64,000 nucleotides of DNA from Methanoculleus chikugoensis (GTDB taxonomy: Archaea > Halobacteriota > Methanomicrobia > Methanomicrobiales > Methanoculleaceae), in contig NZ_AP019781.1 in the NCBI RefSeq assembly GCF_019669965.1, positions 558,001 through 622,000 on the forward strand, read 5' to 3'. The position numbers were made by a program, and so were the translations under genes. How positions within the stretch are numbered: the stretch's first letter is position 1; each line of letters begins with the position of its first letter. The notes under the pieces are model-generated. The model was not told where the DNA came from and did not search any database. It saw nothing but the letters and a program-made list of their open reading frames with translations. Below, piece after piece: positions 24,355 through 26,058 of the stretch.

Positions 24355-25368
24355 ATGGCTGAAGTAGAGAAGTTAAAACAGCTGCAGTTGCAGCGCGAGG
24401 CCCTGAAGAAGAGGGGGGAGCAGAAGGTCAAGGAGACGGAGAAGAAGCGCACCGAAGAGAGCGTTCAGTCCGTCTGCCCCGAGTGCGGCAGCCGCCAGCT
24501 CGTCCACGACTACGAGCGTGCCGAGCTCGTATGCCAGAGCTGCGGTCTCGTCCTCGACGAGGAGTTCATCGACCGCGGTCCCGAGTGGCGTGCATTCGAC
24601 CACGACCAGCGCATGAAGCGCTCCCGTGTCGGCGCACCGATGACGTTCACGATCCACGACAAGGGTCTCTCGACGATGATCGACTGGCGGAACCGTGACT
24701 CCTACGGCCGCGCGATCTCGAGCAAGAACCGCGCCCAGCTCTACCGGCTCCGGAAGTGGCAGCGGCGTATCCGTGTCTCGAACGCGACCGAGCGGAACCT
24801 GGCGTTCGCGCTCTCGGAACTGGACCGGATGGCCTCCGCGCTCGGCCTGCCCCGGAACGTGCGCGAGACCGCCGCGGTCGTCTACCGCGACGCGGTGGAC
24901 AAGAACCTGATCCGCGGCCGGAGTATCGAGGGGGTTGCCGCGGCCGCGCTGTATGCGGCGTGCCGGCAGTGCAGTGTCCCCCGGACGCTCGACGAGATTG
25001 CCGAGGTGTCCCGTGTATCCCGTAAGGAGATCGGCCGCACCTACCGGTTCATCTCGCGCGAGCTCGGGTTAAAGCTCCTGCCGACGTCCCCGATCGACTA
25101 CGTACCGCGCTTCTGCTCGGGCCTGAACCTGAAGGGTGAGGTCCAGAGCCGGGCGGTCGAGATCCTCCGGCAGGCCGGAGAGCGCGAACTTACGAGCGGC
25201 AGAGGCCCGACGGGCGTCGCTGCGGCCGCCATTTACATCTCGTCGATCCTCGGCGGAGAGCGGCGCACCCAGCGCGAAGTTGCCGAGGTTGCGGGCGTGA
25301 CCGAGGTCACGATCAGGAACAGATATAAGGAACTGGCAGAAAAATTAGATATCGAGATCATACTCTGA
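24355..25368 (+). CDS. tfb: transcription initiation factor IIB (TFB)
   Basis: 337 residues. The N-terminal zinc ribbon uses Cys41, Cys44, Cys60 and Cys63 (CPECG...CQSCG). The B-finger/linker [19 protein letters not shown] follows, then two cyclin-like repeats (about 145-235 and 240-330). TFB binds TBP-TATA complexes and recruits RNA polymerase. The N-terminal 35 residues are charged and probably flexible. Directly downstream is tRNA-Ala. Confidence 0.97.
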
Positions 25369-25390: not shown

Positions 25391-25462
25391 GGGCTCGTAG
25401 ATCAGGGGTAGATCGCTGCGTTCGCAACGCAGAGGCCGCGGGTTCAAATCCCGCCGGGTCCA
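25391..25462 (+). tRNA. tRNA-Ala (anticodon CGC)
   Basis: 5' GGGCTCG pairs with 3' CGGGTCC (two G-U pairs), with discriminator A at 25462. The D-stem is GATC/GATC. The anticodon arm CTGCG-TTCGCAA-CGCAG carries CGC, and the T-arm GCGGGTTCAAATCCCGC is canonical. CCA is not encoded, and a T-run follows. CATATCATT about 20 bases upstream is a likely TATA element. The 31 bases at its 3' end recur downstream (25571-25601, and degenerate at 25709-25739). Confidence 0.93.
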
Positions 25463-25512
25463 TTTTTCTGTTTTGTGTATTTACCTTTGCATGAGTATTT
25501 CATAGGTTCTTG

Positions 25513-25650
25513 GGCGACCGCAGGTCGCCGGGGGTTTCGAAAGGGGCGCAGCCCCTTCGGTTGGGACAGGGAGGCCGCGGGTTCAAATCCCGCCGGGTCC
25601 ATTCTTCTGTTTTGTGCCTCAACCTTTGTACGGTATTCTCTGCGTTTCGA
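25513..25650 (+). repeat. 138-bp repeat unit 1 carrying the tRNA-Ala 3' end
   Basis: The unit contains the hairpins GGCGACC-GCA-GGTCGCC (25513-25529) and AAGGGGC-GCA-GCCCCTT (25541-25557). A 31-base copy of the tRNA-Ala 3' end (25571-25601), identical to 25432-25462, follows, and the T-rich sequence after it also matches (TTCTTCTGTTTTGTG). The 5' two-thirds of a tRNA is missing, so this is not a functional tRNA. Confidence 0.8.
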
Positions 25651-25745
25651 GGTGACTACAGGTCATCGGGGGTTTTGAGCGGGGCGCAGCCCCTTCAGTT
25701 GGGACAGAGAGGCCGCGGGTTCGGATCCCGGCGGATCTATCCTCT
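25651..25745 (+). repeat. degenerate repeat unit 2 carrying the tRNA-Ala 3' end
   Basis: It aligns with unit 1 at an offset of 138 bases. The first hairpin is decayed (TGAC-TACAG-GTCA), the second is kept (GGGGC-GCA-GCCCC, 25681-25693), and the tRNA 3'-end copy at 25709-25739 has four substitutions that break the T-arm. The order of identity (unit 1 perfect, unit 2 eroded) suggests stepwise duplication away from the tRNA. Confidence 0.7.
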
Positions 25746-25793
25746 GTTTCTTTCAAAACTTGTTCTTACGAAACTCACCGTGCCCGGGCGACC

Positions 25794-26058
25794 TCACTCG
25801 TCGCCCTCCACCTGCTGCCGTGCAATCCGCTCCTCGCCCTTCTTCGAGATCTCATGCTCCTCCCGCGGGGTCGGGGTCTCGGGTGCCCCGGGCGGGCGGC
25901 TCTTCTCATGGCCCTCGTCGCCGGGTTCGGATGGGACCGGGCTGTAGTCGATACCGTCCCCCTTCCCCTCGAACGGGAACTCCTCGGGCGACCGGTCGTC
26001 CCTCCGCCTCTTCGGCCTCTCTGCCAGCGGTCTCGCTCCCGGACGGCCCCGCGCCCAT
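25794..26058 (-). pseudogene. possible frameshifted small acidic protein gene
   Basis: Reading the minus strand, ATG at 26058 opens MGAGPSGSETAGREAEEAEG. A second frame then carries a coding-like C-terminal part (SPEEFPFEGKGDGIDYSP ... EEHEISKKGEERIARQQVEGDE) ending in TGA at 25796-25794. The second frame has no usable start codon of its own. A single frameshift near 25990 would join them into a charged, probably disordered protein of about 87 residues. It may be a real small gene with a sequencing or true frameshift, or chance. Confidence 0.35.

Follow-up and report, generated by a model that had tools for sequence, protein, structure and literature searches.

A tandem array of tRNA 3' ends and paired hairpins behind tRNA-Ala(CGC) in Methanoculleus chikugoensis and other Methanomicrobiales

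The array behind tRNA-Ala(CGC)

The window analysed here is the whole 64,000-nucleotide stretch of Methanoculleus chikugoensis DNA (contig NZ_AP019781.1, positions 558,001 to 622,000). It contains a tRNA-Ala(CGC) gene, called by both ARAGORN and Rfam, with boundaries taken from Rfam, and upstream of it the tfb gene, which occupies the same place in the loci of relatives that were read and is a conserved neighbour in the genus. Two tandem units stand directly downstream of the tRNA gene and each of them bears the 3' end of this tRNA (Table 1). The repeated tract comprises the end of the anticodon stem, the variable loop, the T-arm, the 3' strand of the acceptor stem, the discriminator A and the first two T of the trailer. 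The 108-bp interval between this tract and the first copy holds a spacer, the hairpins, a tail and nothing else, and the two units align over 93 nt at 83% identity.

Table 1. Features of the tRNA-Ala(CGC) locus of M. chikugoensis (positions are those of the window)
Feature	Position	Strand	Evidence
tfb (transcription factor B)	24355-25368	+	Pfam TFIIB 2e-51, Zn_Ribbon_TF
tRNA-Ala(CGC) gene, CCA not encoded	25391-25462	+	ARAGORN; Rfam RF00005 67.6 bits
tRNA 3' tract repeated downstream	25432-25464	+	33-nt exact match to 25571-25603
Unit 1 spacer, T-rich start (TTTTT 25463-25467)	25463-25512	+	sequence
Unit 1 hairpin 1, GGCGACC-GCA-GGTCGCC	25513-25529	+	covariance model R1, 81.7 bits over 25513-25564; covariation
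Unit 1 hairpin 2, CGA-(A)-AGGGGC-GCA-GCCCCTTCG, one bulged A	25538-25559	+	R1; covariation
Unit 1 tail between hairpin 2 and copy 1	25560-25570	+	marginal likeness to anticodon loop here
Copy 1 of tRNA-Ala 3' end, exact	25571-25601 (exact run to 25603)	+	sequence match
Unit 2 spacer, T-rich	25602-25650	+	75% identity to spacer 1, 88% to G010 spacer
Unit 2 hairpin 1, GGTGACT-ACA-GGTCATC	25651-25667	+	R1, 65.9 bits over 25651-25702
Unit 2 hairpin 2	25676-25697	+	R1
Copy 2 of tRNA-Ala 3' end, 5 differences in 31 nt	25709-25739	+	sequence match
Possible third-unit remnant, palindrome GGGCGAC-N7-GTCGCCC	25786-25806	+	sequence; tentative

The first-pass annotation, made from the letters of the window, had described one exact copy and one degenerate copy of the tRNA-Ala 3' end, spaced by 139 and 138 bp, with shared flanking hairpins and T-rich tails. 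All of these are real. The exact run is longer than claimed (33 nt, not 31), the degenerate copy and both spacings were reproduced, T-rich stretches lie 3' of the tRNA and of both copies, and the hairpins turn out to be a double hairpin in each unit. We regard this anatomy as secure. Further downstream, a third T-containing spacer that resembles unit 2 of the relative G028 (69%) and unit 1 of G007 (65%) precedes a decayed palindrome, perhaps what is left of a third unit. A coding function of the region was rejected, as none of the small ORFs near the array matches a Pfam family. In the Rfam scan of the window nothing but tRNA was above thresholds; kinship with tmRNA was discarded, its weak matches (17-23 bits vs. 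a cut-off of 47) being taken as echoes of the T-arm.

The M. chikugoensis genome is a single contig of 2.62 Mb, in which 46 distinct tRNAs were checked for close-range copies of their 3' ends. Such copies are found behind tRNA-Ala(CGC) only, i.e. behind 1 out of 46 (one marginal downstream match of tRNA-Ile, with 6 errors, was left out of the count), and 28 other tRNAs have a T-run and no array. The hairpin pair was found nowhere else when the whole genome was searched. The occurrence of the unit at many loci unlinked to tRNA genes, which the first-pass annotation had named as the sign of a chance match, is thus not seen in this genome, and chance is ruled out by the 33-nt exact repeat 139 bp away, by the recurrence of the array and by the exact agreement of the copies with their cognate tRNAs.

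Recurrence in Methanomicrobiales and the cognate copies

When the locus is compared in related genomes, as had been proposed at the outset, the array is seen to recur behind tRNA-Ala genes across Methanomicrobiales. R1, a covariance model of the hairpin pair, was applied at a threshold of E<=0.05 for the order-wide count and matched 71 out of 232 genomes, distributed over 19 of the 40 genera. In the genus Methanoculleus the matches (24 out of 35 genomes) stand behind tRNA-Ala(CGC); significant hits are tied to this gene, the other hits of G002 and G011 being at contig ends or in array units. Clear tRNA-tail copies number 0 to 2 per Methanoculleus array, and loci with no tail copy still keep the hairpin pair behind the tRNA. 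The array of other families is likewise behind tRNA-Ala(CGC), and in family f5 it is found behind tRNA-Ala(TGC) as well. No hairpin match was obtained in 11 out of 35 genomes of the genus (some of the assemblies are fragmentary), and families f4 and f6 have almost none; we therefore conclude that the array is either not essential or frequently lost. In a phylum-level sample only three genomes outside the order matched, all weakly scoring, and a search of the class gave the same genomes as that of the order. In the open literature we found no account of such arrays in archaea.

Some relatives carry dispersed hairpins: G118, G119 and G120 have about 15-25 R1 hits each, and G149 also has many. 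The G119 copies that were examined, its own tRNA-Ala array aside, are without a tRNA part, and we therefore regard the hairpin pair as a separable module. The unlinked loci that are missing from M. chikugoensis are thus partly present in other species, in that hairpins are dispersed in the four genomes and the tRNA part is absent from the examined G119 copies only. The dispersed pairs of G119 are intergenic and form part of composite palindromic repeats of greater length (CCCGGCCTGGACGC...TCGGCCGGG...), which seem to be a REP-like family of the genus to which G119 belongs.

The copies derive, as judged from their diagnostic bases, from the 3' end of the adjoining tRNA. A pattern search gave 23 tail-plus-copy junctions. 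At the 11 CGC junctions the tail base is C and the T-stem base G, as in tRNA-Ala(CGC), at the 12 TGC junctions these bases are T and A, as in tRNA-Ala(TGC), there is no exception in either set, and G155 has junctions of both kinds. The one-sided Fisher test for this association gives 7e-7, a value that ignores shared ancestry, and all TGC arrays may share one ancestor. The resemblance extends upstream of the copy, where the unit tails TCCGCAA and TCTGCAA correspond to the anticodon loops TTCGCAA and TTTGCAA (common part YGCAA), and the bases that follow the tail are also cognate in places (GTGAAG, GTAAAG). Similarity between tail and cognate anticodon loop has a shuffle p of 0.001-0.05 in most cases and is marginal in M. 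chikugoensis (p 0.07-0.09). In the best-preserved arrays the copy spans the stretch from the anticodon loop to the discriminator base, and this reach in the relatives upholds the earlier proposal that the repeats stem from the tRNA 3' end. In the TGC array of G150 the junction is displaced to GACGGGTTC.

The hairpin pair and its likeness to known systems

Among 210 species pairs of the genus, the hairpin block is 88% identical, the first spacer 59% (51% when shuffled) and tfb 92%; between distant species the spacers are near random. In a structure-fitted and somewhat favourable alignment of 68 distinct units, the 16 base pairs are kept in 97.6% of cells, compensatory cells number 34 vs. 5.2 in shuffles, and 9 pairs have changed on both sides. 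The loops are also restricted: hairpin 1 has GNA in 43 of its 48 triloops and GNNA in 17 of its 20 tetraloops (GNRA in only 5 of these), and hairpin 2 has GNA in 43 out of 59 triloops and GNNA in 4 out of 4 tetraloops. It is known that GNA and GNNA loops closed by G-C pairs give extraordinarily stable DNA mini-hairpins (PMC4686876). Because the loops follow this DNA rule, their chemistry favours, we infer, folded DNA over RNA as the working form, even though GNA loops occur in RNA too, which counts against a DNA-only reading. Two arrays keep the fold with an altered hairpin 1, which is rewritten as GTGCCC-GGA-GGGCAC in G148 and is a short GACC-GAA-GGTC core in the CGC array of G150. The predicted folds of the units are stable, with T-arm hairpins within the copies. 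A tRNA-like fold with a rebuilt acceptor stem was considered and rejected, since, among the units that were folded, no 5' partner outside the copy consistently pairs with its acceptor strand.

To our knowledge, tandem repeats that copy a tRNA end have so far been a curiosity of one E. coli locus. This locus, the tyrT/tyrV RtT repeats (RF00391), is the closest known system, with a shared plan and without detectable sequence kinship. In E. coli K-12 the 3' end of tyrV recurs in three copies behind the gene, at intervals of 178 bp, and the RtT unit contains the hairpin GTTGCC-GCA-GGCAAC and a second GCA-looped hairpin. Both systems consist of tandem units behind a tRNA gene, each with the tRNA 3' end, a spacer and adjacent GC-rich hairpins, and a comparison of the sequences gives loops of the same kind (GCA). 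The differences are that the host is archaeal rather than bacterial, that the tRNA is tRNA-Ala rather than that of E. coli tyrT/tyrV, and that base pairing of the copied end to a stretch upstream of it is seen in RtT, whereas the archaeal units show no consistent pairing. Sequence kinship was rejected, since neither model recognises the other's sequence: the RtT covariance model has hits in the E. coli locus only and none in four archaeal loci (L006, L011, L136 and L142) up to E=1, and the scores of R1 in the E. coli locus do not rise above noise. The array is an ancient, lineage-wide, archaeal counterpart of the known, unexplained RtT-type arrangement. That an array of the same plan and unrelated sequence follows alanine tRNAs in genomes across an archaeal order suggests that tRNA 3' ends are subject to a general process.

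Two other systems bear a partial resemblance. Like REP/BIME elements, the units have paired, covarying GC-rich palindromes, and these are dispersed in some relatives (G118-G120) and not in M. chikugoensis. Unlike REP/BIME, they are tied to one locus in the genus and a Y1 (RAYT-type) transposase is absent; movement as REPs by a Y1 transposase was rejected, since the genomes searched (M. chikugoensis, G118, G119, G120, G149 and G152) have no PF01797 gene. In form only, and on general knowledge, the units also recall integron attC arrays, in which the sites are folded DNA, have a bulged base and are separated by variable content, but neither a regular gene content nor an integron integrase was found, PF00589 in general being the integrase family searched in M. 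chikugoensis.

Array dynamics, origin and possible function

The units multiply and change. One relative (G033) has three units with identical spacers, which equal the spacer of the single unit in its relative G030, and spacers are 96-100% identical within the arrays of G005 and of G031; therefore whole units have been duplicated in tandem. In G028 and G024 two neighbouring units have very different spacers and identical tRNA copies. Simple tandem duplication alone would not yield such units, and the arrays are therefore also subject to either conversion confined to the tRNA tract or the import of units. In short arrays the end units keep a different tail by sequence comparison, as expected if such arrays arose by deletion between units, which they presumably did. 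Decay is mostly seen in the outermost copies (M. chikugoensis, G014 and G031). These dynamics, as read from the units, are well supported. In the tRNA-Ala(TGC) array of G220 (C2:76000-79200) two tRNA-core copies enclose a methyltransferase gene (249 aa, PF08241), and on either side of the gene unit sequence is repeated directly and imperfectly over about 37 bp.

It is instructive to compare the array to the attachment sites of integrative elements. Integrases use the stretch from the anticodon loop to the 3' end of archaeal tRNA genes (reviewed in PMC8371274), and the attL and attR sites of archaeal elements are direct repeats of the same part of the tRNA as the best-preserved arrays. Such elements exist at tRNA-Ala genes of the order: tRNA-Ala(CGC) of G041 has a 16-kb integrative element (L041 875-17211), whose 47-nt core takes in the anticodon loop and which encodes an archaeal phage integrase (PF16795) beside its distal attachment site, and tRNA-Ala(GGC) of M. 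chikugoensis has a 12-kb island (C1:1240200-1252600) bounded by a 51-bp repeat that starts in the anticodon arm. The cores of these real elements are thus 47-51 bp long with the anticodon loop intact, and no hairpin pair is found at their attR ends (a small sample of two elements). The array differs from attL/attR in that its repeats are roughly 100-250 bp apart in the arrays read, not kilobases, the anticodon loop is altered and whole units are duplicated in tandem. No integrase gene or element remnant lies between the array repeats, and the sole PF00589 integrase of the M. chikugoensis genome is at 869 kb, 286 kb from the array. The tRNA-Ala(GGC) island encodes an RNase III-type protein, a PHP-SMC protein and a HATPase protein, and no PF00589 integrase was detected in it. 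RNase III-type proteins are unusual in archaea. In G016 (C40:12500-29100) foreign-looking DNA directly follows a tRNA-tail copy; it encodes two proteins without a Pfam match (237 and 295 aa) and also contains a small basic reading frame. Carriage by viruses was discarded, as the one viral contig that fitted the hairpin pattern was a chance match in apparent coding sequence.

We lean slightly towards the view that the locus is an old tandem array, changed by recombination between tRNA tails around a selected DNA hairpin pair. The unit would be a truncated tRNA-Ala copy that leads into a T-rich trailer and two adjacent hairpins. As to the origin and function, which are less directly read from the sequences, the array would have started when the 3' half of the tRNA came to be directly repeated close to tRNA-Ala. 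A plausible source of this initial repeat is the distal attachment site of an integrative element that has since lost its body, and a palindromic module would have lain between the two repeats. Direct repeats of 30-40 bp would then allow unequal recombination or replication slippage to add, delete and homogenise whole units, a step that is well supported; hence the 0-2 clear copies per species, the identical spacers in some arrays and the cognate-matching copies. The copies always match the cognate tRNA, which would be held fixed by selection. The hairpin pair would be the selected part and would act in the form of folded DNA, not of RNA; it might, for instance, be a block or an entry point at which a strand is exposed beside the tRNA gene.

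The first-pass annotation had seen in the repeats a possible attachment site and the scar of repeated integration and excision. If so, each unit would record a separate integration by a tyrosine integrase, the copy being attR and the hairpins the end of a lost element. This we consider unlikely, though worth keeping in mind: the stretch copied in relatives is that of real elements, the two tRNA-Ala elements described above have comparable cores, one of them with an integrase, and G016 has foreign-looking DNA after a copy, but the attR ends inspected lack the hairpin pair, the anticodon loop has changed in the units and has lost its match in M. chikugoensis, units are duplicated together with their spacers and the nearest integrase is far away. 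It is therefore plausible, from the span of the copies, that the first copy originated as an integrase attachment site, and this part of the earlier idea stands, whereas the evidence does not support the view that the present units came about through repeated integration and excision. A role of the array as RNA, either as spare 3'-processing or termination signals or as small tRNA-like RNAs, is decidedly unlikely. The T-runs behind the tRNA and the copies, the stable predicted folds with their T-arm hairpins and the annotated RNA (RttR) given by the E. coli RtT units would speak for it; the lack of a consistent 5' partner for the acceptor strand of the copies in the units folded, the 4-nt loops, which are GNNA and rarely GNRA, the position of the first T-run upstream of the hairpins and the 28 other tRNAs that have a T-run and no array speak against it.

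A bolder proposal, which we hold to be very unlikely, is a folded-DNA recombination locus peculiar to Methanomicrobiales, where a putative recombinase adds and removes small units, and occasionally genes as in G220, beside tRNA-Ala, with RtT as an independent example of the principle. More doubtful still is a cassette system in which the recombinase recognises the folded hairpin pair together with the tRNA core. In line with it are the double hairpins, which are of DNA type, have a conserved bulge and adjoin a tRNA core, as well as the differing spacer types side by side in G028 and G024 and the methyltransferase gene of G220, yet a gene separates the junction from the tRNA in only 1 out of 23 tail-plus-copy junctions, and neither a Y1 transposase in M. 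chikugoensis or the dispersed-copy genomes nor any candidate recombinase was found. There is next to no chance that the hairpin is an ordinary dispersed REP-like palindrome that landed behind a tRNA, with the tRNA match incidental. The hits of G118, G119 and G120, in G119 without a tRNA part where examined, would fit this, but a module of significant score occurs in Methanoculleus only at tRNA-Ala(CGC), copies are exact to the cognate tRNA in many species and none is found at the other 45 tRNAs of M. chikugoensis, a genome for which the idea is already contradicted.

Dozens of natural variants, with their different unit numbers, cognate-matched copies and covarying hairpins, allow integrase relics, hairpin-driven slippage and folded-DNA function to be tested against one another. 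There is also a practical point, as the arrays often coincide with contig ends and prompt spurious-looking tRNA calls by ARAGORN. Calls of tRNA-Ser (L136 384-459), tRNA-Cys (L165 795-862) and tRNA-Phe (L200 1275-1351) lie inside array units, seem spurious and are possibly an annotation artefact.
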